DNA from: Gammaproteobacteria bacterium
GTDB lineage: Bacteria > Pseudomonadota > Gammaproteobacteria > GCA-002705445 > GCA-002716945
DNA: 33,479 bases
Assembly: GCA_030835925.1 (NCBI GenBank)
Contig: JAURQW010000016.1
Coordinates: 68,731-102,209, forward strand
Direction: 5' to 3'
A program made the position numbers and the translations under genes. The notes under the pieces were generated by a model. That model ran no database searches and was not told the origin of the DNA. It saw nothing but the letters and a program-made list of their open reading frames with translations. The first letter of the stretch is position 1. The number at the start of each line of letters is the position of its first letter. Shown one piece after another: positions 3,945-32,414 of this stretch.

Positions 3945-4796
3945 TCAGTATATACAAATTTCTCTGTCAAGAGTTATGTTGTATTTAGTTTTAATTTTAT
4001 CTTGTATAAATGATATTAATTCCTCAAGATCATGACAAGTTCCTGTGCCATCATTTATTAAGTAATTACAATGTTTCCTAGAGACATATATGCCGCCAAC
4101 TCTCTCTTTTGATAGGTCAGCAGATTCTATCAGAGAGCTTGCAGCTAATTTACTAGAAGGATTCTTGAATATACACCCGGACGACCATTGTCTTATAGGT
4201 TGAGAACTAGATCTTTGTAATGAATATTTTGATAAAAGGAGTTTATTGAATTTAAGCTCTTTATTAATATTAAGTGTTGCGTTTAAAAATATTTTGATTT
4301 TAGACCTGTCAACATATCTGTAAGATGTTTTAATGTTATTATTTTTATAGACCTTTATTGCGCCATCATGAAGAATGCATCTCACAGAATCTATATGATT
4401 CCAAATCTCGTCTCCAAAAGCTCCGGCATTCATAGCTATAGCTCCACCAAGCGAACCTGGAATACCATGCAAAAACTCAAACCCAGGTATCTTATTTTTG
4501 AAACAGAATTTTGAAAACCTTGCACAGGAAATACTAGCAAAACTAGTTATTTGGAGGTCATCAATACGTCTTATAGGTCTTCTAAAGTGTTTCAAAGATA
4601 TAATACTATTTTTATATCCACTATCTTTAAATGCTATATTCGAACCTTTACCTAAAATAATAGTTTTGTGTAACGAAATTTTACTTTTCAAATGCTCTAG
4701 ATCTTCTAGAGTTTCAGGAAAATATATTTTTGATGATCTTCCACCTATCCTAATGGTTGTAAATTTTTTAAGAGAAACTTTATCTATAATATCCAT
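3945..4796 (-). CDS. murB: UDP-N-acetylenolpyruvoylglucosamine reductase
   Basis: 283 aa; TIRIGGRSSK, LGKGSNIAF, GIPGSLGGAIAMNAGAFG, SSGCIFKNP. Confidence 0.95.
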   Translation of the reverse strand: MDIIDKVSLKKFTTIRIGGRSSKIYFPETLEDLEHLKSKISLHKTIILGKGSNIAFKDSGYKNSIISLKHFRRPIRRIDDLQITSFASISCARFSKFCFKNKIPGFEFLHGIPGSLGGAIAMNAGAFGDEIWNHIDSVRCILHDGAIKVYKNNNIKTSYRYVDRSKIKIFLNATLNINKELKFNKLLLSKYSLQRSSSQPIRQWSSGCIFKNPSSKLAASSLIESADLSKERVGGIYVSRKHCNYLINDGTGTCHDLEELISFIQDKIKTKYNITLDREICIY

Positions 4797-4798
4797 AC

Positions 4799-5872
4799 TT
4801 ATTTAATATAGTTTATTGAATCATTTACAATTTTATCAGTTGTATCATCAGGGAATATATTTTGTATATTCTTGGCCAAAGTATATATTTTTTTTGAATC
4901 ATTTAATAAAATATTTATGATAGAAACAAAGTTTTCAACAAAATCATCCGACTCCTCAAGCATAATAGCAGAAGAGTTTTTTGCTAAATAGTTAGCATTT
5001 AACACCTGATGGTTATCTGTTGCATATGGGAATGGTACCAGCAGTGAAGCTCTACCAATTATTGATAACTCAGCTATTGAGGTTGAACCTGCTCTGCAAA
5101 CAACTAAATCAGACCATTCATATAATGAGCCTATATCATCAGAGTATGATATAACATCTGCATTTATCTGATATAAACTATATTTATCCATAACAGTCTT
5201 GCAATCCTTCTGACCTGTAATATGTTTTATAGAAATATTTTTATTATAAAAGTGTGAAAAAGCGAAAGGCATAGTTTTGTTGAGAAACATGGATCCTTGG
5301 CTTCCACCCATTACCATAATATTAATTGAAGATTTATTATTTTTATATTTATGTTCGGGATTAGTGAGCTTAGTAAAAGATTCTCGCACAGGATTTCCTG
5401 TATAAATGATTTTCTTATTATTTTTATTAAAACTTAATGGAAACGTCTCATATATTCGTTTTGCAAAGTAATAATTAATCTTATTTGCAGTTCCAACTAT
5501 TGCATTCTGTTCATGTATAATAACAGGTATTGACATTATGTAACCAACAAAGGAAGGCGCAACGCTTACAAATCCACCAAAACCAAAGATCATGTTTGGC
5601 TTATATTTTTTAAATATCAAAACTGACTGGATAATTGATTGCATGAATGAAATTAATGAAATTATTTTTTTAGTTAAAGTCTTTCCTCTAATACCTCGAG
5701 AGTTTATCTTTTTCATTATTATATTAGGTTCTAAAACAATTTTATCTTCTAAACCATTTGGTGTTCCAATCCATAAAATCTTATAATCTTGAGAAATATA
5801 TTTTTTTGCTATGGAAAGCGCCGGATAGATATGCCCACCTGTTCCACTTGCTAATATTACTATAGTTTTCAT
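4799..5872 (-). CDS. murG: UDP-GlcNAc--lipid I GlcNAc transferase
   Basis: 357 aa; ASGTGGHIYPALSIA, HEQNAIVGTANK, GGSQGSMFLN, CRAGSTSIAELSIIGRASLLVPFP. Confidence 0.96.
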   Translation of the reverse strand: MKTIVILASGTGGHIYPALSIAKKYISQDYKILWIGTPNGLEDKIVLEPNIIMKKINSRGIRGKTLTKKIISLISFMQSIIQSVLIFKKYKPNMIFGFGGFVSVAPSFVGYIMSIPVIIHEQNAIVGTANKINYYFAKRIYETFPLSFNKNNKKIIYTGNPVRESFTKLTNPEHKYKNNKSSINIMVMGGSQGSMFLNKTMPFAFSHFYNKNISIKHITGQKDCKTVMDKYSLYQINADVISYSDDIGSLYEWSDLVVCRAGSTSIAELSIIGRASLLVPFPYATDNHQVLNANYLAKNSSAIMLEESDDFVENFVSIINILLNDSKKIYTLAKNIQNIFPDDTTDKIVNDSINYIK

Positions 5873-12172: not shown

Positions 12173-13885
12173 TTATCTTCTATCAGGATAAACTTTTAAC
12201 AAATTCAAAGAATGATTCATAAAATCTCTAAAAATTGGAGCAGCGTTTTTACCGCCAGATGCTGCACCATTTTTTGGGTTTCTGACCACAACTGCAGTAA
12301 CGTATTCTGGATTAGTCACTGGTGTGATGCCAACAAAAATAGCTAAATGACTATTTTTTTTATACTCTCCATCTTTTATTATTCTAACAGTACCTGTCTT
12401 ACCTGCTACGGTATATTTCTCTAGTCTTGCTTTTTTTGCAGTTCCATTTTCTACTACAGACTGCATCATATTGACTACTTTTTTGGAAACGCTTCTGTCT
12501 AGAACATCTTCAAAAAATATATCATCATTATTAACTCTTTCATAAGTTAACTGAATTTTTTTGCCATGATTTGCCAGAATTGTATACGCGTTGGCTAAAT
12601 GTAATAATGTTGTAGATAATCCATAACCGTAGCCTATAGATGCATGCAGTGTATCGTCCCAACTAGAGTAATGAGGTAGTCTCCCCTGCTCTTCGCCATG
12701 AAAATCTATATATAAACTCTTGCCAAAGTCAAAGTTTTCTAGTGTTCTGTATATATTTTTTTTATTATTTGCTAAAGATATTTTTGCTGCGCCTACATTA
12801 CTTGATAGTCTAATAACATCTTCTAAAGATAAATCACCAAGATCTTTATAGTCTTTTATTTCATGTTTTCCTATCTTCATCTTGCCAGGGGATGTGCTTA
12901 TAAAATCTTTTTCCTTAAATGTGTTTTGTATCAATGTATTATATACTGTGAATGGCTTGATAGTTGAACCTGGTTCAAACGAGATGTTGGTGACACTATT
13001 CTTTATTTTAGATCCAAATAATTCTTTACGATTGCTTGGGTTAAATGATGGATAATTTGCCATCGCTAGTATTTCACCAGTTTTAACTTTTACTAAAACA
13101 AGAGAAGAACTATCTGCATCAAATTTTTCTGTATACTCTTTTAAAATATTAAATCCAATAAACTGTATCCTTTTGTCAATAGATAAGTATACGTCCTCAC
13201 CTGGGGAGGGTTTTTTTATAAAATCAATTAATTCTATTGATCTCCCTAAATTATCTTTTCTTATTTTTTTGATACCGCTTGTCGAACTCAATTCTGTATT
13301 TTTTGAGTACTCAATACCAGATTGACCATTATTATCGATATCTGTAAATCCAATAATGTTCGAAAAGTATGATCCACCCAAATATACACGTTGATATTCA
13401 TCGATAAAATAAACATTTGGAAGATTAAGCTTTGAAATATCTTTTACTAAATCATCACTAATTTTTCTTTTTAGGTAGTATTCTTTTTTATTTTTATGTT
13501 TTTTGAGTATCTTTTTGAAGTTTTTTTCAGGTAGTTTTATTAATTTTAATAGTTTTTTATAATTTACATCTTTGTCTTCAGAATTAATTCTAGAAACATT
13601 TATGCATAGGGTTTTTCTAGGTATACTCATTGCAAGCATTTCATTATTTCTATCATAAATAATGCCTCTGAATGTTTTTATAACTTTTAAGTTGATCTGT
13701 CTTTTGTCAGCTACATCACTAAGATTTTTTTTACAAGAGCTTTCATTTACATAAAAACAGTCTGTATTAAAACCTTGTAATAATATAACTCTTGTTACAA
13801 TGAATATAAAAATCAAGGAGACAATACTAACTACAAAGTACTGTCTCCATTTATGATTGTTTGAGTTTTTACTTTTCTTAGTCAG
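12173..13885 (-). CDS. ftsI: Penicillin-binding protein 3 / FtsI transpeptidase
   Basis: PBP motifs STIK, SSN, KTGT. The ORF track starts at TTG 13816, but the same frame continues upstream as (L)TKKSKNSNNHKWRQYFVVSIVS-LIFIFIVTRVILLQ, the expected cytoplasmic tail and TM helix. The only start-like codon there is CTG at 13885-13883, 7 nt after AAGG. Confidence 0.9.
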   Translation of the reverse strand: MTKKSKNSNNHKWRQYFVVSIVSLIFIFIVTRVILLQGFNTDCFYVNESSCKKNLSDVADKRQINLKVIKTFRGIIYDRNNEMLAMSIPRKTLCINVSRINSEDKDVNYKKLLKLIKLPEKNFKKILKKHKNKKEYYLKRKISDDLVKDISKLNLPNVYFIDEYQRVYLGGSYFSNIIGFTDIDNNGQSGIEYSKNTELSSTSGIKKIRKDNLGRSIELIDFIKKPSPGEDVYLSIDKRIQFIGFNILKEYTEKFDADSSSLVLVKVKTGEILAMANYPSFNPSNRKELFGSKIKNSVTNISFEPGSTIKPFTVYNTLIQNTFKEKDFISTSPGKMKIGKHEIKDYKDLGDLSLEDVIRLSSNVGAAKISLANNKKNIYRTLENFDFGKSLYIDFHGEEQGRLPHYSSWDDTLHASIGYGYGLSTTLLHLANAYTILANHGKKIQLTYERVNNDDIFFEDVLDRSVSKKVVNMMQSVVENGTAKKARLEKYTVAGKTGTVRIIKDGEYKKNSHLAIFVGITPVTNPEYVTAVVVRNPKNGAASGGKNAAPIFRDFMNHSLNLLKVYPDRR

Positions 13886-15029
13886 CTTGTTGCCTTAGAA
13901 AAGCAGGGATATCGATATTATCAACACTTGTTTTATCTACAATCGCCTCTTTTGTTGCTACATTGTTATAATTAGGAGAACTAGGTATATGATTAACACT
14001 ACCAACTATAGCATTGGGAGCTGGAGTGCTAGCATCATCACTTGCACTGATCATCTCTTCTGCATCAGCTTTTTGGTTCTCAAAGCCAGTAGCAATTAAA
14101 GTAACTCTTAACTCACCTAGATTATCCTGTTCTTTAATACAACCAATGATTACTGTTGCATTTTCATTGGCAATACCTTTTACTCTCTCACCAATTGTAG
14201 AAAACTCTTTAGACGTTAAGTCAGCTCCAGCCGTGATATTTACTAATACACCACTTGCTCCATGTAGATCAATATTATCTAACAAGGGGCTATCAATAGC
14301 TGCTTGTACAGCCTCATCTGCTCTGTTTTCTCCAGTTGCAAAACCTGAACCCATCATGGCTTTGCCACGTCCAGACATAACGGTTTTTACATCAGCAAAA
14401 TCAACATTTATAAATCCTCTGATAGTAATAATTTCAGCTATTCCTTTCACAGCGCCGCGTAGAACATCATTTGCATTTTCAAATGATGAGAATATAGAAT
14501 TATCATCACCATATACTTCTGCCAATTTCTCATTTGGAATTACAATTAAAGAATCGACCCATTCACTTAGAGCTTCTATTCCTTGCTCTGCATGAAGCAT
14601 TCTCTTGCTTCCTTCAAAATCATATGGCTTCGTTACAACTGCAACAGTCAAAATCCCAGCATCTCTTGCGATTTGTGCTATGACTGATGCTGCTCCAGTT
14701 CCGGTTCCACCTCCCATACCAGCTGCAATAAAAAGCATATCCGCGCCTTCAATTGCAGAAGATAATTCCTCTTTTGCCTCTAATGCTGCCTCTCTTCCCT
14801 TTTCTGGGTCAGCTCCAGCTCCAAGGCCTTTTGTGATCTCAGAACCTATTTGTATCATAGTAGCTCCTTTAATATCCCTCAAAGCTTGAGAGTCTGTATT
14901 TGCTAATATGAATTCCGCGCCATGAATACTTGATTCAAGCATGGACATCACGGCATTACCGCCGCCACCGCCTACACCTATCACTTTGATCACAGCATTT
15001 TGATTATACTCATTTACTAACTCAAACAT
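13878..15029 (-). CDS. ftsZ: Cell division GTPase FtsZ
   Basis: 383 aa; GVGGGGGNAV, AGMGGGTGTGAA tubulin signature, C-terminal peptide IDIPAFLRQQAD; SD GGAGGTG upstream of ATG. Confidence 0.99.
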   Translation of the reverse strand: MFELVNEYNQNAVIKVIGVGGGGGNAVMSMLESSIHGAEFILANTDSQALRDIKGATMIQIGSEITKGLGAGADPEKGREAALEAKEELSSAIEGADMLFIAAGMGGGTGTGAASVIAQIARDAGILTVAVVTKPYDFEGSKRMLHAEQGIEALSEWVDSLIVIPNEKLAEVYGDDNSIFSSFENANDVLRGAVKGIAEIITIRGFINVDFADVKTVMSGRGKAMMGSGFATGENRADEAVQAAIDSPLLDNIDLHGASGVLVNITAGADLTSKEFSTIGERVKGIANENATVIIGCIKEQDNLGELRVTLIATGFENQKADAEEMISASDDASTPAPNAIVGSVNHIPSSPNYNNVATKEAIVDKTSVDNIDIPAFLRQQAD

Positions 15030-15043
15030 ACTACACCTCCGGT

Positions 15044-15313
15044 TTATTCAACCAAATCTATATAAATAACTTTATTTTTGTTAGGAATTTTCATTCCTAA
15101 AATTCTTTTAATATTAGCATCTGTTGATTTCTCATCGATTAGTTGTGCTTTTGTGTCTAAGAGCTTTTTATGCTGATTAAGCTGTCTAGAGAGTTCTTTT
15201 TCAGATTTTTCAATTTGAATATTCATTAGTCTATTTTTGTGCTTTACATAAATCACTGTAAAAGCGGAAATAGTTATAATCAATAAAATTAATAAATTAG
15301 TCATAATCCTCAT
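15044..15313 (-). CDS. ftsL: Cell division protein FtsL
   Basis: 89 aa; N-terminal TM plus coiled coil; overlaps the rsmH 3' end; expected position. Confidence 0.85.
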   Translation of the reverse strand: MRIMTNLLILLIITISAFTVIYVKHKNRLMNIQIEKSEKELSRQLNQHKKLLDTKAQLIDEKSTDANIKRILGMKIPNKNKVIYIDLVE

Positions 15314-16244
15314 TTACTTTTTCCAAAATATTTAATTTAGCTGATCTCGATCTTGGGTTTATTTTAATTTCATCACTGGATGGTTTTATAGATTTTGCTA
15401 CAACATTAAACATTTTTTTTAAAAATTCGCTTTTGATAGGAAGCCCTCTTGGTGTAGATAAATTTTCATCTGTTACTGATAGAAAATCTTTTATTACCCT
15501 ATCCTCAAGAGAATGATATGTGATTAATACTAAACGTCCTTTTGGGGCAAGTATATTATAACTATTATGAAGAGCATCTTTGAGAACTTCTAATTCTTTG
15601 TTAATAAATATTCTTATCGCTTGAAACGTTCTTGTAGCATTATGTTTATGTTTTTCATTTCGAGGTACCGCTTTATCAATTATTTTTGATAGTTGCTCTG
15701 TATCAGTAATAGTTGTCTGTTCTCTCTGATAAATTATGGACTTTGCTATTCTTCTGGAATATCTCTCTTCTCCAAATTTCCAGATAATATTTGATAGAGT
15801 TTGTTCATCAACATCTTTAATCCAATCACATGCAGAAATACCTGAGGTTTGATCGAATCTCATATCAACCATTCCTTTTTTATTGAAACTAAAACCTCTG
15901 GCTGGTTCATCCAAATGATGAGATGACACGCCTAAATCAAATAGGATTCCATTTACAGAACCATAAACGCCCCACTCTTTAGAAAATTTGCCTAAATCAG
16001 AGAAACATCCATGTTTCAGGGAAAACCTTTCATCAGTAAAAATTTCAGGATTGAGGAGGTTTATAGCATCACGATCTTTGTCAATTGCATTTAATTTTCC
16101 ATCCTTATCCAAGTTTCTGAGAATTTGTTCTGAATGACCGCCAAAACCAAATGTGGCATCAATATACGATCCATTTGATACAATATTCATGGCATCAATA
16201 GATTCATTTAGCATTACAGGTATATGTCTTTGAAGTTGACTCAC
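15297..16244 (-). CDS. rsmH: 16S rRNA m4C1402 methyltransferase RsmH (MraW)
   Basis: 315 aa; HIPVMLNES, YIDATFGFGGHS, FDLGVSSHHLDEPARGFSF; GTG start in GTGA overlap with the upstream ORF. Confidence 0.97.
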   Translation of the reverse strand: MSQLQRHIPVMLNESIDAMNIVSNGSYIDATFGFGGHSEQILRNLDKDGKLNAIDKDRDAINLLNPEIFTDERFSLKHGCFSDLGKFSKEWGVYGSVNGILFDLGVSSHHLDEPARGFSFNKKGMVDMRFDQTSGISACDWIKDVDEQTLSNIIWKFGEERYSRRIAKSIIYQREQTTITDTEQLSKIIDKAVPRNEKHKHNATRTFQAIRIFINKELEVLKDALHNSYNILAPKGRLVLITYHSLEDRVIKDFLSVTDENLSTPRGLPIKSEFLKKMFNVVAKSIKPSSDEIKINPRSRSAKLNILEKVNEDYD

Positions 16245-16441
16245 GATAAATCCTTTCTAAATTTTATAATGTTTTCATAAGCATCTTTCGCATCGATAAA
16301 TTTTTCTATGGAATCTGCGCTATTTTGATTCTTATCTGGATGATATTTCTGAGCAACCTTCATATAGATTTTTTTTATTACTCTAATATCTTCATTACCG
16401 GTAATACCTAAAGCTCGATAATATTTATCTATTTTCATCAT
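16241..16441 (-). CDS. Minimal (66 aa) J-domain protein within the dcw cluster
   Basis: YYRALGI…IKKIYMKVAQKYHPDKNQN…KFIDAKDAYENI: helices I-III with the HPD motif. 4-nt overlaps with mraZ (ATGA) and rsmH (GTGA). Confidence 0.9.
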   Translation of the reverse strand: MMKIDKYYRALGITGNEDIRVIKKIYMKVAQKYHPDKNQNSADSIEKFIDAKDAYENIIKFRKDLS

Positions 16442-16890
16442 ATTCTTAAATCTGATAAGACAGATTGTTCAGACTCATCAGTCTCTTCAGATCTCCAATT
16501 ATTAACTTTGGTATTCCAAGTATCTTCATTCCAAATTTCAAATTTCTCACCTTGCCCTATCAATGTGATCTTTTTAGTCATATCAGCCGCCAATCTCAGA
16601 GGTTTTGATAGTAAAATCCTACCAGCAGAGTCTATATCTAAGTCTTCTGCATGACCTATTAGTATTCTTTGTATACGTCTATGATTTTTAGAAAAACTTG
16701 GTAAATCATTGATTTTTTTCTCGATTATAGCCCAGATCGTTGATGGGTATAACAATAGACATTTCTCTTCAGTATCCATGGTGACCACCATACTGCCATT
16801 TGATTGGTCAGTAATTGTGTTTCTATACTTAGTTGGTATGGTTAATCTACCTTTACCATCTAAGTTTATATTATGTATGCCTTTAAACAT
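16438..16890 (-). CDS. mraZ: Transcriptional regulator MraZ
   Basis: The ORF track starts at 16929, but the conserved MraZ N-terminus is MFKGIHNINLDGKGRLTIPTKYR (ATG 16890). AbrB-like fold repeat DIDSAGRILLSKPLR. Confidence 0.93.
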   Translation of the reverse strand: MFKGIHNINLDGKGRLTIPTKYRNTITDQSNGSMVVTMDTEEKCLLLYPSTIWAIIEKKINDLPSFSKNHRRIQRILIGHAEDLDIDSAGRILLSKPLRLAADMTKKITLIGQGEKFEIWNEDTWNTKVNNWRSEETDESEQSVLSDLRI

Positions 16891-16893
16891 ATA

Positions 16894-16918
16894 TACCATT
16901 TTCTCCCACAATTTAACA
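16894..16918 (-). promoter_or_regulatory. Candidate MraZ operator (three 10-nt phased TGGGN-like boxes)
   Basis: Minus strand TGTTA-AATTG-TGGGA-GAAAA-TGGTA just upstream of the mraZ ATG; one perfect and two degenerate boxes with N5 spacers. Confidence 0.5.
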
Positions 16919-16937
16919 AAAATTGCCATATATCAAC

Positions 16938-16966: not shown

Positions 16967-17080
16967 GGTTTTATAGCTATAAACCATAGATTTTATGTAA
17001 AAATATCGTTATTTATCAAATAGATATAATTTACAATAACTTAGGGGGTTATTATAAAATCAAACAAAGAAAAAGTGGTA

Positions 17081-17410
17081 AGAGTCAACCGATAAGCCGG
17101 GTTCTGTCATGTATGATCATTAATCTGGGATATTTGTCACCAAATACCTCTAGCAGCCTACCATATAGCGTGCCTTAGGCTGGCAAAATGCTATAAATTT
17201 GCTTTGCTCCTAGTGGGGTTTGCCTCAACCATACTTGTTACCTTGTATGTGGTGAGCTCTTACCTCACCTTTTCACCCTTACTAGCTTATGCTAGCGGTT
17301 ATTTTCTGTAGCACTTTCCGTAAACTTACGTTTCCCAGGTGTTACCTGGCACTATTGCCTATGGAGCCCGGACTTTCCTCTGTTTACACAGCGATCATAT
17401 AGTTGACTCT
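17081..17410 (-). ncRNA. rnpB: RNase P RNA (bacterial type A-like)
   Basis: Minus strand contains GAGGAAAGTCCGGGCTCC, GGGTGAAAAGGTGAGGTAAGAGCTCACC and ACAGAACCCGGCTTATCGG. P1 pairing AGAGTCAAC / GGTTGACTCT defines the ends. Confidence 0.96.
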
Positions 17411-19274: not shown

Positions 19275-19886
19275 ATGATTATAAAAAATACAGATGTAAC
19301 GATTATTATACTAGCTGGAGGAAAATCTGAGAGAATGAAGGGCCTGGATAAAGGATTACTTCAAATAAATAATGAATATATAATAAAAAAGTTACATGCG
19401 CTTTCGACAAAATATTCTACCAAGGTATATGTGAATGCCAACAGAAATATAGATATATACAAACAAATGGGCTTTAACGTATGGGAAGACATAATATCGG
19501 ATTATCAAGGACCGCTAGCTGGCATGTATACAGCTTTAAAAAACTGCAACACACAATACTTATTGACGCTACCTTGTGATGGACCACTAATAAGTGATAT
19601 ATATTTTATGAGAATGTTAGATAATAATAAGAAGATTGAACTTAGAACTGCCCATAATGGAGACCGATTACAGCCAGTATATTCACTCATATCGAGAGAT
19701 CTATTAGGAAGTTTGAAAAATTATATTGATACTGGACAGAGGAAGATAGATAAGTGGTTTGAATCGTGTAATTTGGAACTGATAGATTTTTCAGATAATA
19801 AAGATATATTCATTAATATAAACAAAGAAACAGACTTGTTAGAATACAAAGAATTAATAGACAAAAATTTTAAGAGTTATGAATGA
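19275..19886 (+). CDS. mobA: Molybdenum cofactor guanylyltransferase (MobA-like)
   Basis: 203 aa; LAGGKSERMKGLDKGL, YQGPLAGMYTAL, TLPCDGPLI, LQPVYSLI. Confidence 0.88.
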   Translation: MIIKNTDVTIIILAGGKSERMKGLDKGLLQINNEYIIKKLHALSTKYSTKVYVNANRNIDIYKQMGFNVWEDIISDYQGPLAGMYTALKNCNTQYLLTLPCDGPLISDIYFMRMLDNNKKIELRTAHNGDRLQPVYSLISRDLLGSLKNYIDTGQRKIDKWFESCNLELIDFSDNKDIFININKETDLLEYKELIDKNFKSYE

Positions 19887-20409
19887 TAATAAAAGAACAG
19901 CTTGGTGCATTACTGGCTCGGGTCATTATCTAAAGGAATCTATAGATTTAATGATTAAGCTTAAAAATGTTGATTTGTTTCTAAGCAAAGCTGGCGAAGA
20001 AGTATTAAAATGGTATAACTATGATCTTAAAGATTTTAGGTCAAAAGGAATTAAAATTTTTAAAGATAATACAGCCAGTGGAGCCCCAGTGAGCTTGCTT
20101 TATGAAGGTGTCTACAAATTAGTAATCATTAGTCCAGCAACTTCTAATACAGTCGCTCAAATGGCATATGGCTTATCAGCAGGATTAGTTACTAATATGT
20201 TTGCTCAGGCTGGAAAATGTAGAGTTAAATCTATTGTATTTGCTTGTGATACTGAGCCAACTGTCATTACACAGGCGCCAAAAAAATCCGTAACTCTTTA
20301 TCCAAGAGAAATTGAACTAGATAATTATGAAAAATTAAAAAAATTTAAAGATGTAGACGTTGTGGATAGTATAGATAAACTCAAAAATTCTATAGAATTA
20401 TCATTATGA
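19879..20409 (+). CDS. Archaeal-type flavoprotein / dihydromethanopterin reductase (DmrB-like)
   Basis: 176 aa flavoprotein; WCITGSGHYLKES, SPATSNTVAQMAYGLSAGLVTNMFAQAGK; 8-nt overlap with mobA; H4MPT gene context. Confidence 0.82.
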   Translation: MNDNKRTAWCITGSGHYLKESIDLMIKLKNVDLFLSKAGEEVLKWYNYDLKDFRSKGIKIFKDNTASGAPVSLLYEGVYKLVIISPATSNTVAQMAYGLSAGLVTNMFAQAGKCRVKSIVFACDTEPTVITQAPKKSVTLYPREIELDNYEKLKKFKDVDVVDSIDKLKNSIELSL

Positions 20410-21791
20410 AAAAAAATATTTTATTTATTACAGGTAAATTAGCAGAAAATAACTTGAAGAAGATTTTGGAGCGTATTGATAATAAAGAATTTGATTATGA
20501 AATAAGAAACCTAAATGTTAATGTGGCTGCATTGTTAACAACAGATATGATTGCTAGAAGAATAGGTGATGTTAAAAAATTTAATAAAGTAATTCTGCCT
20601 GGAAAAGTTAGAGGAGATATTGGTGAGCTATCCAATCAGTTAAATATAGAAATTCAGAGAGGTCCTGAAGAACTGAAAGATCTACCTACAATGTTTGGTG
20701 GTAAGGCTTTAAAATATGACTTATCAAAATATGAAGTCCATATATTTGCAGAGATAACTGATGCTCCAAATATGTCAGTCGAAGAAATTATTAAACAGTC
20801 GAATTACTATAGAGAGAATGGTGCGGATGTAATAGATATAGGATGTCTCCCGAATCAAAAGTTTCCTCATTTATCGGAATCAATTAAAGAATTAAAAAAT
20901 CAGGGATTCTATGTAAGCATAGATTCACATAATGATGATGAACTTATATTGGGTGCGAAGTCAGGAGCTGATTATATGTTAAGTATTAAGTCAGATAATT
21001 TTCATATTCTAGATAAAGTTGACTCCTATCCTATACTGATCCCACAAAACGGTGATATGAAAAGTCTATATGAATGTATAGATAAATGTTTAGAAATGAA
21101 AAGAGTTTTCATTGCAGATCCTATTCTTGATCCAATTAATTATGGTTTCACTGACTCGATCTTAAGATATAAAGAACTTAGGAGCGCATATCCAGATATT
21201 CATATAATGATGGGGACGGGCAATGTGACAGAGCTTACTCATGCGGACACCACAGGTATTACAATGACGTTAATGGGGATTATTTCTGAACTAAAAATTA
21301 ACCATATTTTGACAACGGAAGTAAGTAATCACTGTAGATCAGTTATTAAAGAAAATGATATTGCTAGGCGCATCATACTAGCTGCTAGCGAAAATAATAC
21401 GACACCAAAGCATATAGACTCAGCTCTTTTAACCACACATAGCTCAGAATCTTCCAAGTATTCTCATAAAGAAATTAAAGATCTAGCTAATAATGTTAGA
21501 GATAAAAATTATAGGATTATGTTGTCTGAAGACGGGATTCATCTATTTAATAAAAATGGAATTGAAATTGCTAAAGACCCATATGATTTATATGAATTCA
21601 TTGATGTTGAAGGTGATATAGGACATGCATTTTATCTTGGCTTGGAATTAGCTCGGGCGCAGATTGCTTATCAATTAGGCAAAGAATATGAGCAAGACGA
21701 GGAGTTAAAATGGGGATGTTTAGTAGATCATGAAATTGATGATAAACTAACTTTCAAACAAACAAGTTCAACATATAAGAAGAAAAGATGA
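20406..21791 (+). CDS. Dihydropteroate synthase-related protein of H4MPT biosynthesis
   Basis: 461 aa; N-terminal extension plus TIM-barrel DHPS-like half (GADVIDIGCLPNQKFPHLSESIKELKNQGFYVSIDS…, MMGTGNVTELTHADTTGI). Confidence 0.85.
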   Translation: MKKNILFITGKLAENNLKKILERIDNKEFDYEIRNLNVNVAALLTTDMIARRIGDVKKFNKVILPGKVRGDIGELSNQLNIEIQRGPEELKDLPTMFGGKALKYDLSKYEVHIFAEITDAPNMSVEEIIKQSNYYRENGADVIDIGCLPNQKFPHLSESIKELKNQGFYVSIDSHNDDELILGAKSGADYMLSIKSDNFHILDKVDSYPILIPQNGDMKSLYECIDKCLEMKRVFIADPILDPINYGFTDSILRYKELRSAYPDIHIMMGTGNVTELTHADTTGITMTLMGIISELKINHILTTEVSNHCRSVIKENDIARRIILAASENNTTPKHIDSALLTTHSSESSKYSHKEIKDLANNVRDKNYRIMLSEDGIHLFNKNGIEIAKDPYDLYEFIDVEGDIGHAFYLGLELARAQIAYQLGKEYEQDEELKWGCLVDHEIDDKLTFKQTSSTYKKKR

Positions 21792-22366
21792 TACATGAAG
21801 TAATAGTTACAACCATTTCTAATAAAGGCATAGTCCATATAGCTCCAATGGGGATAAGATTCATTGACAAGCAAGTTATCATATCACCATTCAAGCCATC
21901 CACAACCTTAAATAATATTATAGAAAATAATATAGCAACAATAAATTTTATAGATGATGTTAGAGTGTTTGCAGGTATAGTATCCCGACATAAGAAAGAT
22001 TGGGAATTATCTGCTAGGACTGATTTAGAAATAGTACCGAATTTAACTCTAACAAATACTTTCTATAATGTAGCTGTGAGTGAATACCAAGAAGATGATA
22101 AGCGTCCAAATATCATATGTGATATAAAAAATTCCGAGATAATTAAACCTTTCTTAGGTTTTAATAGAGCTCAGTTCTCTGTTATCGAAGCCGCAGTTCT
22201 GCTGAGTAGACTAGGAATGATCTCTATGGAGAAGATTGATAGAGAAATTGAATATCTTAAAATTGGTATTGATAAAACTGCAGGACCTAATGAATTAGAA
22301 GCCTGGAGATGGATACAAGACAAGATACTTAGCTATAAAAAAGATTTGAAGATCCCAAATGACTAG
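21788..22366 (+). CDS. DUF447-family protein
   Basis: 192 aa; EVIVTTISNKGIVHIAPMGIRF N-terminus typical of DUF447; H4MPT context; 4-nt overlap with upstream CDS. Confidence 0.8.
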   Translation: MIHEVIVTTISNKGIVHIAPMGIRFIDKQVIISPFKPSTTLNNIIENNIATINFIDDVRVFAGIVSRHKKDWELSARTDLEIVPNLTLTNTFYNVAVSEYQEDDKRPNIICDIKNSEIIKPFLGFNRAQFSVIEAAVLLSRLGMISMEKIDREIEYLKIGIDKTAGPNELEAWRWIQDKILSYKKDLKIPND

Positions 22367-23036
22367 ATTTCTCGCAAGTATTAAAAATATCGAAGAAGCA
22401 AAAAGAATATTATTTTCAAATATTGATATAATTGATTTTAAAAATGTTAATGATGGCGCATTGGGCTTCGTTGGGGTCGAAATTATTAACCAAGGAAGGA
22501 AAATACTAAAAGATCATATAATCAGTGTAACAATGGGTAATGATCTTAATCCTAATAATGAAAGTCTGATTAATAATATAAATTCTGTTGTAAAAAATAG
22601 AATAGAATATATTAAAATCGGTATGTTTGATATTTCTATGTTACATGAGCATAAAAATCTTTTGGACAATATTGATTTTTCTAATACCAAGCCTATTTGT
22701 GTTGTATTTGCAGATCAAGATTTTGACTTATCATTGATACAGAAAATTATAGATATAGGTTACAAGGGAGTTATGATTGACACATGTCATAAGAATGGTA
22801 AATCAATACTAGACTTAATTAACAAAGATATTATTACTAAGTTTATAAAAATAGTAAAAGACAACAATGTAATATGTGGTTTATCTGGATCTTTAAAACT
22901 TCATCATATTAAAGAGTTAAAAGATCTAGATGTTAATTTCTTAGGTTTTAGGGGTGAGTTATGCTCCAAATCAACAGGAAGAGATTTTATTAATATTAGT
23001 CAAGTTGAAAAAGTATCTTGTGAAATTAAAAGTTAA
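22359..23036 (+). CDS. mfnB: (5-formylfuran-3-yl)methyl phosphate synthase
   Basis: 225 aa; IIDFKNVNDGALGF and MIDTCHKNGKSILDL (two lysine motifs), LSGSLKLHHIKEL. Confidence 0.88.
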   Translation: MTRFLASIKNIEEAKRILFSNIDIIDFKNVNDGALGFVGVEIINQGRKILKDHIISVTMGNDLNPNNESLINNINSVVKNRIEYIKIGMFDISMLHEHKNLLDNIDFSNTKPICVVFADQDFDLSLIQKIIDIGYKGVMIDTCHKNGKSILDLINKDIITKFIKIVKDNNVICGLSGSLKLHHIKELKDLDVNFLGFRGELCSKSTGRDFINISQVEKVSCEIKS

Positions 23037-24379
23037 TTCTCAAATATTTTTAAAAGGGGTTTAATTTTATCAAATGTCTCTTTATATTCAGACTCTACTT
23101 CTGAATCATAAACAATCCCTCCTCCACCCCAAAAAAAAAGCTTATCATTAGTTGCAGCTACAGTCCTGATTGCAATATTTAAATCAGTATTACCGTTAGA
23201 GCTAATATAGCCAATTGATCCACAGTAAATTCCTCTGTTATCTGGCTCTAGTTCATTAATAATCTGCATTGCTCTAATCTTAGGCGCACCTGTGATAGAA
23301 CCACCTGGGAAACACCCTTTAATTAATTTAAAAATATCACTAGTATCTGGTATTTTTCCTTGAACAGTGCTGACCAAATGATGAACATTTGCAAAAGTTT
23401 CAATATCAAACAATTTTGTAACCTTTACTGAACCAAATTCACAATTCTTACCAAGATCATTGCGCAATAGATCTACTATCATAAGATTTTCAGCTTTTTC
23501 TTTATATGATGATGCTAACTCTTCTAATGCCCTATTATTCATCTCTTTATCTTGTGAAACCGGTCTTGTTCCTTTAATTGGTTTCGTCTCAACAATTTCA
23601 TTATCATAAGACAAAAATCTTTCCGGGGAAAAACTCATGATGTTAATAAAAGGCATTTTAATATAGGCCGAGTATGGAGCTGAATATGTTGGTGATATTT
23701 TATTATAAATATCCCAAGTATCGCCAGAATAATTTAATGAGAACCTTTGTGAAAAATTTATTTGATAACAGTCTCCATTCTTAATATATGACTGGATCTT
23801 ATTAAATTTTTTTTCATATTCATTATATGTTAAATTAGAAATACAATTCGAATCTATAGAATAACTATTAGGCTCGTATCTTTTAAAATTTTTATTTTCC
23901 AATAGTTTTTTAATTGTACTAATAAGGTTGTTTTCTTGTTTGTATACTAAATTTATTTCTTTCTCTAAATGGTCAACTATAATAGCCCAATCATATATAC
24001 CAAATGCCATCAGCGGCATATCAAGATCTGTATTTTTTATGTTTATACCTTCATAAGTGTTCCCTAAATCATATGAGATATAGCCTATTGCGCCACCAGT
24101 GAAGGGTAAGTCAGGGATATTAGAATCATAATCTTTCATTATCTTCGCTAAAATATCAATAGGGTCATCATGGTATTCTGATTTAATATCATTAGACTCA
24201 ACAATAGTTTTATTTATATAAGAATAGATTTTTTGTATAGGCGAGCAAGTGATAATGTCGTATCTCTGATTTTTGAATGTTTTATGATTACTACATAAAT
24301 AAACCGCCCATTCATAATCTTTTATAAAAGAAAATATATCTTTTGAGTCATTATCATAGTTGTAAGTTATCTTATTCAT
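23033..24379 (-). CDS. pabB: Aminodeoxychorismate synthase component I-like (PabB)
   Basis: Chorismate-binding motifs IKGTRPVSQDKEMNNRALEEL, LMIVDLLRNDLGKNCEFGSVKV, FPGGSITGAPKIRAMQII. Probable start at the internal ATG 24379, overlapping the upstream stop; the ORF track extends to 24436. Confidence 0.9.
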   Translation of the reverse strand: MNKITYNYDNDSKDIFSFIKDYEWAVYLCSNHKTFKNQRYDIITCSPIQKIYSYINKTIVESNDIKSEYHDDPIDILAKIMKDYDSNIPDLPFTGGAIGYISYDLGNTYEGINIKNTDLDMPLMAFGIYDWAIIVDHLEKEINLVYKQENNLISTIKKLLENKNFKRYEPNSYSIDSNCISNLTYNEYEKKFNKIQSYIKNGDCYQINFSQRFSLNYSGDTWDIYNKISPTYSAPYSAYIKMPFINIMSFSPERFLSYDNEIVETKPIKGTRPVSQDKEMNNRALEELASSYKEKAENLMIVDLLRNDLGKNCEFGSVKVTKLFDIETFANVHHLVSTVQGKIPDTSDIFKLIKGCFPGGSITGAPKIRAMQIINELEPDNRGIYCGSIGYISSNGNTDLNIAIRTVAATNDKLFFWGGGGIVYDSEVESEYKETFDKIKPLLKIFEN

Positions 24380-25421
24380 AGGATTTTTTAAGTAATAGAG
24401 ACAATAAGAAAGATGGCGCGGTATTTGATAAACCATCTATATTATTCCTAAATGAATTATTTAATGTTTTTTCTAAATCTGTATAATGCCACTTATTCTT
24501 GTTACATATTTTTTTTATTATTTTCTCTCCTATTCCCATCCCCACAAAATGCAGGTTTTTTATATCCTTAAAATTTTTATTTATATGGTAGTTGATAGTA
24601 TAACTTATTTGATTGAAATGTTCTGTCATGATTTTCTTCGAGAGACTTATAATTAATTTCTTTTGATTATTGGTATAATCCATACCGAATATACGTGATA
24701 TCCTTTTTAGACTATTAATTTCTGATTTAGACCTACCGTCTGCTGTCTCGCTATAGTCATCTTTAGGGGATATGATGCCAAGCACTCTATAGATATCTCC
24801 CATGGTCGCATAATATTCTGGTATCAAAGGGTAAGTCTGAGCATTAAATCTAATTTGCTTCGAAACTGAAAAAATAGGGGTCCTCAATACCCCAGAATAC
24901 AAAAGTTCTGAACTTAGTAAGCCTGTATAATCATCAACTCTTTTGTTTATACACCTAGAGTTTTTTAATAGAATAAAATCTGTAGTAGTAGATCCAAGAT
25001 CTATAGCAATTGCATTTTTTTTTATAAGGCCCAGATACTTAGCTATTATGTGCCAATTCATAGAAGCGATATGTTTATGGTTCTTGTATTCACTAATTGG
25101 CAAAATATCATCCTTCCACGAATAAATAGAATTATTCATCTTTTTTCTATTGAATAAAGATAATATTTTTTCAACCCCATGTTTTCTGTCAATGAATATA
25201 TCGCACATTTCTCCAGACATGCTGATCGCGTTATTGATGATATATTTTTTACTATAGGTTTTATACATATCATCTATCACTGTTTTTAGTGGAGATAAAC
25301 TTTTCCATAATCTCAAAGGTAAAATCTTAGAGGATAATATCAGGGAGTTCTCTTTTATAATTGTATATTTAGTATGAGCACCTCCTATATCCCACCCAAT
25401 GTATAAGTTTTTTTTATTCAT
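24372..25421 (-). CDS. Hydantoinase/oxoprolinase-like ASKHA protein, MfnF-like
   Basis: 349 aa; GWDIGGAHTKYTI, AIDLGSTTTDFILL, GVLRTPIFSV; H4MPT/methylofuran context. Confidence 0.75.
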   Translation of the reverse strand: MNKKNLYIGWDIGGAHTKYTIIKENSLILSSKILPLRLWKSLSPLKTVIDDMYKTYSKKYIINNAISMSGEMCDIFIDRKHGVEKILSLFNRKKMNNSIYSWKDDILPISEYKNHKHIASMNWHIIAKYLGLIKKNAIAIDLGSTTTDFILLKNSRCINKRVDDYTGLLSSELLYSGVLRTPIFSVSKQIRFNAQTYPLIPEYYATMGDIYRVLGIISPKDDYSETADGRSKSEINSLKRISRIFGMDYTNNQKKLIISLSKKIMTEHFNQISYTINYHINKNFKDIKNLHFVGMGIGEKIIKKICNKNKWHYTDLEKTLNNSFRNNIDGLSNTAPSFLLSLLLKKSYE

Positions 25422-26364
25422 TATTTGATAAACAATACTCTCTACTTGTGATTACATTTTTAATATATTTATGATTGACCAATAAATCAATTATATTACA
25501 ACCTATTGTTTTATATACACCAACATAAGAAGTTGTTAATCTAGTATTTACCTCAACAATATATATGTCATTTTTTTTCAACAAAATATCTATACCAATA
25601 AATCCGAATAACCCTGGTAAAGAATTATGCACCTCAGAGATAATTGATAAAATCCTTGAATATAGTATTTTATTTACATTAATAGATAAACATTTAAGTT
25701 TAATCATGTTTTTTTCAATAACAGTATGTTGTCGATTAATTGTTAGCAATCTATAATTAGATTTAGCAAAAAAGATTGATAAACTATAGCTGTCTCCTTT
25801 TATTAGAGGTTGAATAACTCTGTCTTTGGCATAGTGCTTGCTCAAATCAGACTTATCAGTAACTCTAACATATGAACACCCTGCGCCATACCTGTCTTTT
25901 ATAATACATTTATTAGATAAAATTTTAGAATTAATATTGTCACATGTTGGAATAACTGGAATTGAGTATTTATGTAAGTATTTATAAAATAATAATTTAT
26001 CGGAACATGTTTTTATAGTTTCAGAATTAGAGATGATTTTTTTAATGTTATTTTTTTCTAAAAATTTAACATAACTTAATAAATTCGAATTAGTTTCTGG
26101 AAGAATTGGAAGAACATAATCATACTCTTTAATTAAACTAAGGTCATACAAATCTTTATCAGCATGTATGACTATAGCTTTATCTGAGTATAAATCTTTA
26201 AGTCTATAATCTAGAAAATAGTTACAGTCAAAGCTTTTTGACCTATCACAACTCTCAATAAGTGTTGATAACATCATTCTGGCTTCTAACATAAGATCAG
26301 AACTTAGATCTTCATTTAGAAGACCTCCTCCTGTAAAATATTCATATATTAATATCTTTTTCAT
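25414..26364 (-). CDS. ATP-grasp ligase, MfnD-like
   Basis: 316 aa; YEYFTGGGLLNEDLSSDLMLEARMMLSTLI, IKDRYGAGC, FGFIGIDILLKKNDIYIVEVNTRLTTSYVG. Confidence 0.75.
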   Translation of the reverse strand: MKKILIYEYFTGGGLLNEDLSSDLMLEARMMLSTLIESCDRSKSFDCNYFLDYRLKDLYSDKAIVIHADKDLYDLSLIKEYDYVLPILPETNSNLLSYVKFLEKNNIKKIISNSETIKTCSDKLLFYKYLHKYSIPVIPTCDNINSKILSNKCIIKDRYGAGCSYVRVTDKSDLSKHYAKDRVIQPLIKGDSYSLSIFFAKSNYRLLTINRQHTVIEKNMIKLKCLSINVNKILYSRILSIISEVHNSLPGLFGFIGIDILLKKNDIYIVEVNTRLTTSYVGVYKTIGCNIIDLLVNHKYIKNVITSREYCLSNNE

Positions 26365-26367
26365 ATT

Positions 26368-27051
26368 ATGGACATAATTCCTGTTTTAGACATATTAAAT
26401 AATAAAGTAGTTAAAGCCATTAAGGGTGATAGAGCTAAGTATAAGTCTATCGACTCTAGGCTATATAATAGCATAGAGCCAATAGAGATAATAAAGCAGT
26501 TATCGAAAAGATATGCTCCACATATATTGTATATAGCCGATTTAGATGCAATTTCTAATAATAAGGTTAATCATGAATTATTTAATAAAATATTACATAT
26601 ATTTCCTAAAATAGATTTTTGGATAGATACGGGAATGAACAAAATAAACCTTGTGAAAAAATATAAAAACTATACTCCTATATTCTGTAGTGAAAATTCT
26701 AAAGGTTTTGATTTAGTCTCATCTAAAAATAATAAATATATATGTTCTTTGGACTTTAAAAATTCTTTTCTAGGAACAAAACCTATATACAAACATAAAA
26801 GATATTTACCCAATAAGATTATTATTATGGATTTATTGCAAGTTGGCTCAGTAAATAATTTGAATTATAAAATTGCAAAAAAAATTATCAAGAATGATAA
26901 GAAAGATTATTATATAGCTGGAGGAGTTAAAAAAGTTTTGGATATTAGGAAAGCCAGGCAAATTGGAGCAAAAGGGGTACTCGTATCATCAATACTTCAT
27001 AGGAGTAAATTGACAAGGTTGTTCATACAAAAAGAAAAAACCAGCCTATAA
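26368..27051 (+). CDS. HisA-like TIM-barrel protein of the H4MPT gene set
   Basis: 227 aa; IIPVLDILNNKVVKAIKGD, YICSLDFKN, YYIAGGVKKVLDIRKARQIGAKGVLVSSILH. Confidence 0.8.
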   Translation: MDIIPVLDILNNKVVKAIKGDRAKYKSIDSRLYNSIEPIEIIKQLSKRYAPHILYIADLDAISNNKVNHELFNKILHIFPKIDFWIDTGMNKINLVKKYKNYTPIFCSENSKGFDLVSSKNNKYICSLDFKNSFLGTKPIYKHKRYLPNKIIIMDLLQVGSVNNLNYKIAKKIIKNDKKDYYIAGGVKKVLDIRKARQIGAKGVLVSSILHRSKLTRLFIQKEKTSL

Positions 27052-27063
27052 ATAGACTGGTTT
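27029..27063 (-). terminator. Rho-independent terminator of fae
   Basis: Minus strand AAACCAG-TCTATTTATAG-GCTGGTTTTTTCTTTTT: 7-bp stem, extendable through CTAT/ATAG, followed by a U tract. Overlaps the 3' end of the convergent HisA-like CDS. Confidence 0.8.
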
Positions 27064-27088
27064 GATCAAAAGTTGAATAACTACCTGC

Positions 27089-27610
27089 TTACGCTTGTCC
27101 TGAGAAAGGATGTTGTTTAGCATCTGCACTAGCAACCACTTCATCAGCTGTTGGCGAACCAGACACTGCTCTTGAAATAGCTTCTTTAACTGCTTTGTAG
27201 TTATACTCATAGATTCTTCCGTCATCATTAGCATCCCAATGAATGAAAACACCTACGCAAATAAATACATCATTAGCTTCAGCTGCTGGGATTGTTCCAT
27301 CTTTTACACTATCAGCAACTGCCATAGATACGGCTGCTTGTGCTGGACCGAACATTTGCACAGCTTGTTTAGCTCCTTTAATTGTAACTTTGTTGAACAT
27401 TACAGTTGCTGGTTTTACCATTAGGTTTGGTTGAGAAACCGCTAAAAGTGATGTGAAACCATCTTTGTTATTACATAATGTATTACAAAATGCATCTTCA
27501 ACAGCTGAACCGCGAGGACCCATAATTAAGTCAATATGAGCAATCTCGTTATCGCCGCCTTCTGTTACAACTAGGCTTTCACCAGTTAGTACTTTATCAA
27601 TTACTGCCAT
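27089..27610 (-). CDS. fae: Formaldehyde-activating enzyme
   Basis: 173 aa; [81 protein letters not shown]. Confidence 0.97.
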
Positions 27611-27677
27611 TTGTTATCTCCTGTTTTATTAAATGAGAAATACTTTTTACCATCTTTAAAACAAAGATAGATGATTA

Positions 27678-28556
27678 TTAGTTATTACCTGAAATCTTGT
27701 AAATCATCAGGCTAGCTACTAATAAATCTGCGGTAGTTCCCGGGTTAATTCCTTTTTTCTTATATTCATAATCCAAATTATTAAGCGCTTTTGCGAGATA
27801 ATCAGGATCATATTCCCTGTCTAGTATTTTTAGCAAATCATGGGCATTATTACTAGTCTTTTTTGCTATTTTATCACCAAATTTACGAGAAATATGAGAA
27901 TCTGGTATTTTAGCAAGAATTTCTATAAACAATAACGATAATGATATATCCAATGACTCATACCTTTGATTAAGAAATTCCAACTTAGGTATAATAAAAT
28001 CAAAGATGTCACTAAAGTTATGAGAATATTGGTATGAAATCCTATCATATTCTTGAGAATAATCCATTATTTCTTTAATACTAGCATTTGGATATGATGC
28101 AGTATCATACATATCTGTATCTCCTAGCCCTCCTGGCGACGAGATATTGATGGCAGCACATAAATCATGAGTATCCTTGATCGATGTGGTAGCTAGTGTT
28201 TTTTTGATACCCTCTCTAAGGTCTAAAAGATTAAAATCAATATATGATTGAATAACTGGAGCACAAAGAAGAATTATGCCTAGATTTGTGTTCACATTTA
28301 TCTGCGCCCGAGTAACCTTTACAGATTCAAGAATTCTTTTTCCAAAAGAATGATTTTGATTAAATAACTCTTTCGAACTAAGGATAGCGCTATCCAAATA
28401 ATCTTGTGCTTTTGTATCTTTATGAGATGAAAGCAAGTTCACGTTTCCAGGTTTGATTAGTTCAATATCTTTTTTGCAAGAAAAGAGGTATGCGGTCTTT
28501 AGATCATCAATAGAATGTTTATCTTTGTCTATGAAAAAGTTAGCTTGATGGGTCAT
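27678..28556 (-). CDS. Triphosphoribosyl-dephospho-CoA synthase (CitG)-like protein
   Basis: 292 aa; IELIKPGNVNLLSSHKDTKAQDYLDSA, LGIILLCAPVIQS, SSPGGLGDTDMYD, PDSHISRKFG, NPGTTADLLVASLM. Confidence 0.8.
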   Translation of the reverse strand: MTHQANFFIDKDKHSIDDLKTAYLFSCKKDIELIKPGNVNLLSSHKDTKAQDYLDSAILSSKELFNQNHSFGKRILESVKVTRAQINVNTNLGIILLCAPVIQSYIDFNLLDLREGIKKTLATTSIKDTHDLCAAINISSPGGLGDTDMYDTASYPNASIKEIMDYSQEYDRISYQYSHNFSDIFDFIIPKLEFLNQRYESLDISLSLLFIEILAKIPDSHISRKFGDKIAKKTSNNAHDLLKILDREYDPDYLAKALNNLDYEYKKKGINPGTTADLLVASLMIYKISGNN

Positions 28557-28562
28557 GTATTA

Positions 28563-29468
28563 TTATTGAATAGAAATATTAGTTTCTTTGACATTATGAT
28601 TAAGGAAAGAATTGACAATTTGATCAGAAATATTTTCATTAATTATTGATTGCATTCCTCTCCAAGCTGGAATGCTGTTTACCTCAATAATATAATTTTT
28701 ATCATTAGATTTAATTATATCAACACCGCAAAAAGGTATGTTTATGGTTTCAGCAGCCTTAATGGCAACATCAATTAGATCTTTATCAAATTTTACAGAT
28801 ACACACTTGCCACCTCTAGAATAATTGTTTATATATGAATTACCATACCTTGCCATTGTATATGTTTTATAACTACTTCCAGATTTTATGACTAATACTC
28901 TGTAATCATGGGATGGTTCAGTCTCAAGAAATTCTTGAATATAATAAATACTAGAATCATTAGAAATTTTCTTAAAATCATTAATATTACTAATTTTAAC
29001 TATATTTTCTCCTTGTGACCCAAAAAGAGGTTTAAAAATAAGACTATGTTTTTTTAATAAGTTTTTTGTATTCTCTATTGAGCTATCAATATCTCTAAAG
29101 ATCCATGTCTTAGGAGTTAGTAGATTTGCCTCTTTAAGTCTAATACTTGTAAGCGACTTATCTACGGTAGTCTCGATACTCTCAGAAGTATTCATGACAT
29201 TAATATTATTTGACTCAAAAATTTTAAGAATGTTAAGGTTAATAATTACTTGTTCTAATGTACCGCCAGGTACATGTCTAACAAAAACATCTGTGAAATC
29301 ACTTAACTCTTTATTATTTAAAAATACCTTGTTTGCGCTATCTTCAATTCTTATAGAGAGATCTTCTAGACATGCAGATTCTACAGTTACATTATTCTTT
29401 TTAAAAGATTTATATAGCTGAGAATAATGCCAGCCTTTTAGGTCGGTAAGAATGAGTACTTTTCTCAT
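28563..29468 (-). CDS. RimK-family ATP-grasp ligase
   Basis: 301 aa; VDKSLTSIRLKEANLLTPKTW, FKPLFGSQGENIVKI, CGVDIIKSNDKNYIIEVNSIPAWRGMQ. Confidence 0.82.
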   Translation of the reverse strand: MRKVLILTDLKGWHYSQLYKSFKKNNVTVESACLEDLSIRIEDSANKVFLNNKELSDFTDVFVRHVPGGTLEQVIINLNILKIFESNNINVMNTSESIETTVDKSLTSIRLKEANLLTPKTWIFRDIDSSIENTKNLLKKHSLIFKPLFGSQGENIVKISNINDFKKISNDSSIYYIQEFLETEPSHDYRVLVIKSGSSYKTYTMARYGNSYINNYSRGGKCVSVKFDKDLIDVAIKAAETINIPFCGVDIIKSNDKNYIIEVNSIPAWRGMQSIINENISDQIVNSFLNHNVKETNISIQ

Positions 29469-30433
29469 TTATTAAATGATGCATCTATTAATTCAAGATT
29501 CGTATTGCCTTCAATAAAGGTTTTTCCTGTCTTTAGTGTTGAAACTATAACTTTTGCTGGGCTGAATAAGAGTTTATCAATCTTATAAAAATCATATTTA
29601 TATTCTTTAAATATATCTGCGAATGGTTTTCCATAATCTGAAGATGTAGAGCTTGGCAGTCTTTTTGCTAACTCAAAAGCTTCATCGTCTGGAACATCAA
29701 CAAATAAATGAACAGTTCCTCCATACAATATTGCGTCATTTGTCCTTCCCATACCTATCAAGAAATCCGGGGCCGGCGGAGGTACTGGGGCAGACCCAAA
29801 ACCATCAACAACTTTATCCAAAGGAAATCCTATTTCATGGAGCTTATGCATGCCAACCTCCAAAACTCTTCCAACAACTTGAACGCTGCCCGATAAAGAC
29901 TTGGTCGGGGTCAGGATTATTGTTAAGTTCTTCTCACTTACTCCACAGTCTGTTGAAATTTTATCAATTATTTCTTGTGGCGGATTTCTATCCACCTCCA
30001 ACACTACAACTGTAGAGTAGAATTTGTCCGAATAGTCTAAATCTTTGAATAAATCCTCTTTAAGCGCTAAAGCTCTACACGGGCCCGATCCTAATGCATT
30101 AAAATTATCTTCCTCTTTAACGAATGATAGGTTCCAACCTGCATACTGACTAGCTAAACAACTCAAAACTGGATTAGTGCTACTGACATTAATGGTTAAT
30201 GGCCAATTATCTGTGTTTGATGTCATCGTTAAATCAACTTTACCCAAACCACCCATGCAAATCTCTGTGATGAGTCTTCCCGACTCTAAACAACCATTAT
30301 AGTTAATACCTGCATCAACTATTTTGGCTCCACCCTCTGAAGTATGCACACCAATGTTTAGCTGATCAGCTTTTTCGAGTAGTTTTTCAACCAAGGGTTT
30401 TACAGTCTTATTTATACTTATTTTGTCATTCAT
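29465..30433 (-). CDS. mch: Methenyl-H4MPT cyclohydrolase
   Basis: 322 aa; AGINYNGCLESGRLITEICMGGLGKV, SQYAGWNL, LGSGPCRALA, GFGSAPVPPPAPDFLIGMGRTNDAILYGG. Confidence 0.95.
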   Translation of the reverse strand: MNDKISINKTVKPLVEKLLEKADQLNIGVHTSEGGAKIVDAGINYNGCLESGRLITEICMGGLGKVDLTMTSNTDNWPLTINVSSTNPVLSCLASQYAGWNLSFVKEEDNFNALGSGPCRALALKEDLFKDLDYSDKFYSTVVVLEVDRNPPQEIIDKISTDCGVSEKNLTIILTPTKSLSGSVQVVGRVLEVGMHKLHEIGFPLDKVVDGFGSAPVPPPAPDFLIGMGRTNDAILYGGTVHLFVDVPDDEAFELAKRLPSSTSSDYGKPFADIFKEYKYDFYKIDKLLFSPAKVIVSTLKTGKTFIEGNTNLELIDASFNK

Positions 30434-30436
30434 AAT

Positions 30437-32394: not shown

Positions 32395-32414
32395 CTTAAG
32401 TCTCCATTTATGCT

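Follow-up and report, generated by a model that had tools for sequence, protein, structure and literature searches.

A J-domain-only protein encoded between mraZ and rsmH at the head of a gammaproteobacterial dcw cluster

Organization of the dcw cluster

The window analysed here, a stretch of 33,479 nucleotides from a gammaproteobacterial genome, carries on its minus strand a dcw cluster that reads mraZ, mini-J, rsmH, ftsL, ftsZ, ftsI, murE, murF, mraY, murD, ftsW, murG, murB, ddl, ftsQ, ftsA and lpxC, where mini-J denotes a short open reading frame for a J-domain-only protein. The mraZ–rsmH head of the dcw cluster is among the most conserved bacterial gene orders, and in a set of 14 genomes, one from each of 14 other families in the class, rsmH is the next gene after mraZ, the aligned parts of the two being no more than about 135 bp apart, in agreement with the standard order described in the earlier note. 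In these same genomes ftsI comes after rsmH and ftsL with no ftsZ between them; in the taxonomic order to which the window belongs, ftsZ follows rsmH and ftsL in all 20 loci.

The mraZ gene (16438–16929, minus strand; PF02381) matches TIGR00242 with 147.6 bits, the match beginning at residue 14. Its true start is probably at 16890 (150 aa) and not at 16929, because homology begins there and the open frame of four congeners is only 150 aa long. Directly before this likely start lies a series of MraZ-box-like repeats with 10-bp phasing, TGGCA-N5-TGTTA-N5-TGGGA-N5-TGGTA (16894–16928, minus strand), resembling the TGGGN repeats bound by Escherichia coli MraZ, and related repeats precede mraZ in 20 loci of the order. 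The pattern, which was written from the site itself, matches once in the window and not at all in 100 shuffles, a count that tells us no more than that chance would not be expected to produce such a run elsewhere. The repeats are likely to form a putative MraZ operator, and mini-J would therefore lie in an operon that MraZ controls. MraZ has been described as a repressor of dcw genes, for example in Mycoplasma genitalium (PMC8475190). The upstream neighbour of mraZ is rnpB, the class A RNase P RNA (17077–17410, minus strand; RF00010, 294.7 bits).

Downstream of mini-J, and likewise on the minus strand, are rsmH with a GTG start (15297–16244; PF01795; TIGR00006, 345 bits against a cut-off of 154), ftsL (15044–15313; PF04999), ftsZ at its unusual site between ftsL and ftsI rather than behind ftsA (13878–15029; PF00091 and PF12327) and ftsI (12173–13816; PF00905 and PF03717).

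Further along the cluster, the window's genus has no murC between murG and murB (murB/murG junction at 4796–4799 in the window; also loci L261, L164 and L166), and in genus g5 murC is retained in place. In four genomes of the window's genus, among them G006 at 99% completeness, and in G013, a member of a different genus, no protein reaches the MurC cut-off. The best match in the MurC search is Mpl (TIGR01081, 460 bits), which may now carry out the L-Ala ligase step instead. One assembly (G007) contains a second, different dcw-type cluster with murC, murG, ftsW, murD, mraY and murE (L264, G007:C2:14000-22500); with 5% contamination listed for this assembly, the cluster is probably contamination from another organism.

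The mini-J reading frame and its J-domain

The mini-J frame (16241–16441, minus strand) translates as MMKIDKYYRALGITGNEDIRVIKKIYMKVAQKYHPDKNQNSADSIEKFIDAKDAYENIIKFRKDLS and is joined to mraZ by the sequence ATATGATGA. Two starts are possible within the overlap with the mraZ stop (16438–16441), namely ATG 16441, which gives 66 aa and a 4-nt ATGA overlap, and ATG 16438, which gives 65 aa and a 1-nt TGATG overlap. The real protein may be the 65-residue form, since the second start position alone exists in ten of the 12 loci from relatives that do not belong to genus g5 (L004–L014, L017) and Met2 is invariant. Thus, the overlap with mraZ proposed in the earlier note is present, but its assignment as a shared ATGA is not secure, as TGATG also fits and is favoured by the relatives outside genus g5. 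Across 20 genomes this junction is an overlap in 19 (1-nt TRATG or 4-nt ATGA) and a direct abutment in one. At the other end the mini-J stop and the rsmH start share GTGA (16241–16244, minus strand), exactly as had been noted, and an overlap (RTGA, TAATG or 8 nt) is found in 20/20 genomes. Because mini-J overlaps or abuts both neighbours, it is expected to share a transcript with mraZ and rsmH, and the operon membership previously claimed for the frame is borne out at both junctions in all 20 genomes.

A search of mini-J against Pfam gave a significant match to DnaJ (PF00226; 49.2 bits, E-value 5.7e-13, cut-off 27.8, over residues 6–57) and no match to any further family. Fold prediction, which had been set beforehand as a check on the J-domain assignment, returned the J-fold: the AlphaFold2 model (mean pLDDT 89.9) has helices at residues 4–10, 19–33 and 42–65, and the nearest solved chain in both sequence and fold, 5nro_B, is E. 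coli DnaJ's J-domain in complex with DnaK (Foldseek E-value 2e-3, probability 1.00, TM score about 0.7). The modest Foldseek E-values are in line with a length of only 66 residues. Helix IV of DnaJ is absent, with helix III running on in its place, and the KR segment of DnaJ is also absent.

The HPD motif reported in the earlier note is intact and forms part of an HPDK sequence in the loop between helices II and III (residues 34–37; 16331–16342, minus strand) that is invariant among 17 aligned sequences. The positions invariant in this alignment are Met2, Leu11, Asp18, Ile22, Lys23, Ala30, His34, Pro35, Asp36, Lys37, Phe48, Ala54, Tyr55 and Ile58, of which Lys23 in helix II occupies the position of Arg22 in E. 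coli DnaJ and Phe48 that of Phe47. The residues aligned with DnaJ Lys48 and Asp59 and with the helix IV region are not retained, which may make the coupling of mini-J to DnaK weaker, and the C-terminal 8–10 residues are weakly conserved. Mini-J has the J-domain and the HPD between helices II and III that are expected of a class C J-protein (Hsp40 type III), and the G/F region, zinc finger and C-terminal β-sandwich domains of classes A and B are missing, as the frame stops after helix III. By its sequence, mini-J is thus unremarkable as a class C J-protein apart from being very small.

The isolated J-domain of DnaJ has the same fold, but mini-J is free-standing, without the remaining DnaJ domains or helix IV, and belongs to a separate clade (see below); it is not a class A DnaJ, scoring 41.5 bits against 377.2 for TIGR02349 and matching in the J-domain only. 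TopJ of the mycoplasmas, a J-protein tied to cell structure through terminal organelle assembly, is a large multi-domain protein of which mini-J matches only the J-domain (34 bits against a cut-off of 300). HscB/Jac1, the class C protein of Fe–S assembly, is a dedicated J-protein encoded beside its Hsp70 and has a client-binding C-terminal domain, whereas mini-J lacks the HSCB_C domain and the lineage's own HscB adjoins hscA elsewhere in the genome. AtcJ of Shewanella oneidensis is likewise a very small class C J-protein; its J-domain is functional, and one operon encodes both AtcJ and the client AtcC (PMC6715715). However, AtcJ has a 21-aa C-terminal AtcC-binding extension where mini-J ends directly after helix III, and its operon is atcJABC, which serves cold adaptation, whereas the neighbours of mini-J are mraZ and rsmH. 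An identity of mini-J with AtcJ was rejected on these grounds, with NCBIfam NF050028 (printed ActJ) giving 26.7 bits against a cut-off of 150, no extension and no atcA, atcB or atcC. J-only proteins are also known from phages, for example Rki of RB43-type phages; they, too, carry no known domain besides the J-domain and act on DnaK, but are phage-encoded (PMC13254874). The viral matches fetched are DnaJ-like and score at the level of DnaJ (67 bits or less) rather than at that of intact mini-J proteins (81–123 bits), so that a viral origin of mini-J is not supported.

Conservation, origin and chaperone context

The order was sampled with 25 genomes from one family and six genera, and each of the 20 with an intact locus, representing all six genera, carries mini-J between mraZ and rsmH. 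Apparent losses in some relatives are artefacts of assembly: in four genomes (G002, G011, G019 and G020) mini-J, mraZ and rsmH are all missing, which therefore reflects assembly gaps, and in a further one (G024) all three are present in a frameshifted assembly. Nei–Gojobori dN/dS ratios for moderately diverged pairs are 0.065–0.132 for mini-J, 0.063–0.108 for rsmH and 0.037–0.061 for mraZ, and mini-J is under purifying selection. The expectations that the frame would be conserved in related genomes and is not a relic have thus both held.

In a J-domain tree the mini-J proteins form a single clade (98/98 support) on a long stem, separate from the family's own DnaJ and CbpA/DjlA-like proteins; the tree spans 63 columns, which are too few to place the source of mini-J. 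When a mini-J profile was searched against the class (274 genomes) and the phylum (399 genomes), the non-family proteins among the best matches listed were long DnaJ-type frames with no comparable short open reading frame, except for a handful of short frames located where contigs end. A search of openly available papers revealed no dcw cluster that contains a J-protein gene. What is new is the fixed, coupled place of mini-J at the head of the dcw operon, the protein type itself being already known.

Assembled genomes of the order are about 0.7–1.2 Mb. Near-complete members encode DnaK, HscA, DnaJ and an HscB adjoining hscA, and a check of near-complete genomes turned up no J-proteins besides DnaJ, HscB and mini-J, alongside two Hsp70s as possible partners of mini-J; a separate DnaJ of 371 aa exists. 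Among the named records compared, the DnaJ of the window genome is nearer to gammaproteobacterial than to alphaproteobacterial sequences (54% for Enterovibrio, 47% for HIMB59), which speaks against an assignment to AEGEAN-169/HIMB59; no SSU rRNA was detected in four genomes searched for it. CbpA and DjlA gave no matches in members at the thresholds used, and many other genomes of the class have two to four J-domain matches. A loss of dnaK and dnaJ in several relatives, by which the Hsp70 partner would have been altered, was considered and rejected: of 12 members checked that gave no DnaJ match, ten likewise yielded no dapB, the gene immediately after dnaJ, and in G004 and G010 dapB sits less than 1 kb from a contig start, pointing to assembly gaps. 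The Hsp70 partner of mini-J would be DnaK in preference to HscA, since HscA and HscB are a dedicated Fe–S pair and mini-J has a general J-domain signature.

On the far side of mraZ and rnpB, positions 19275–33152 of the window hold genes of tetrahydromethanopterin-type C1 metabolism (Fae, methylene-H4MPT dehydrogenase, DUF447, DUF6513, an MfnB-like 4-HFC-P synthase and ATP-grasp ligases), a set that here sits in a gammaproteobacterial-looking genome of about 1 Mb.

Possible function and client

Specialization is seen as the hallmark of class C J-proteins, each directing Hsp70 to a single client or location (PMC13254874). AtcJ offers the nearest precedent for such an arrangement. By analogy with it, we give even odds to mini-J functioning as a free-standing class C J-protein that partners DnaK on behalf of one client, the protein encoded by a neighbouring dcw gene. 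In such a mechanism, mini-J would be translated in a coupled manner on the dcw mRNA between MraZ and RsmH, would dock on DnaK and trigger ATP hydrolysis, and would thereby load DnaK onto a client made on the same polysome, presumably MraZ, RsmH or a protein of the divisome. The most favoured client would be MraZ, an oligomeric repressor that could be freed or disassembled from its own operator, with RsmH second and FtsL or FtsZ third. MraZ is placed first because DnaK and J-proteins dismantle oligomeric DNA-binding complexes and MraZ represses dcw genes. Expression of the entire division and wall operon would in this way be tied to chaperone availability. More tentatively, and with the balance somewhat against it, mini-J could be the first Hsp70 co-chaperone in bacteria with the dcw operon as its sole charge. 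It would load DnaK onto MraZ or a divisome protein translated from the mRNA that also encodes mini-J, and dcw expression or divisome assembly would then depend on how much chaperone is available. If so, it would be a candidate route for Hsp70 control of division genes in a genome-reduced lineage; mini-J would also rank among the smallest natural J-proteins and inform the minimum required for engagement of DnaK.

The main weakness of a dedicated client is that mini-J has no client-binding tail, and operon position by itself is no proof that a client is shared. Evolutionary rate covariation with mini-J is 0.43 for RsmH and 0.39 for a control gene, so that the control is nearly equal to the best candidate and no partner stands out. 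The chief rival is that mini-J stimulates DnaK generally, without a specific client, replacing lost class B/C proteins such as CbpA and DjlA, with its dcw site serving growth-matched expression. This alternative is on the unlikely side, but it agrees with the lack of an extra client-binding segment, with streamlined genomes that have no CbpA or DjlA matches where many others of the class have several J-domain matches, and with the phage J-only proteins, whose action on DnaK involves no other known domain (PMC13254874). It is weakened by the strict mraZ–rsmH position in six genera and by the kept overlaps, which exceed the needs of general expression.

It is less probable still that mini-J acts on the divisome, helping DnaK to remodel FtsZ or insert FtsL, with mini-J and the relocated ftsZ brought under one coupled operon head. 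The co-occurrence of mini-J and the ftsL–ftsZ–ftsI order across the whole order is consistent with this proposal, as is the chaperone support of division in Caulobacter, where GroESL acts via FtsA and FzlA (PMC8262945). However, the gain of mini-J and the relocation of ftsZ could be independent, ftsZ lies three genes downstream of mini-J and FtsZ rates do not covary with those of mini-J (partial r 0.11).

A role independent of Hsp70, in which mini-J is a small helical subunit or stabilizer of MraZ or RsmH and its J-fold is incidental, appears very unlikely. Although the non-retained equivalents of DnaJ Lys48, Asp59 and helix IV would suit such a role, and pseudo-JDPs provide examples of J-like proteins that have lost Hsp70 coupling (PMC13254874), a purely structural function would not require HPDK to be invariant in all aligned mini-J proteins. 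Finally, the short length of mini-J might suggest a relic, a chance open reading frame or a functionless DnaJ fragment, but this is refuted by the dN/dS values, the single old origin and retention in 20/20 intact loci.
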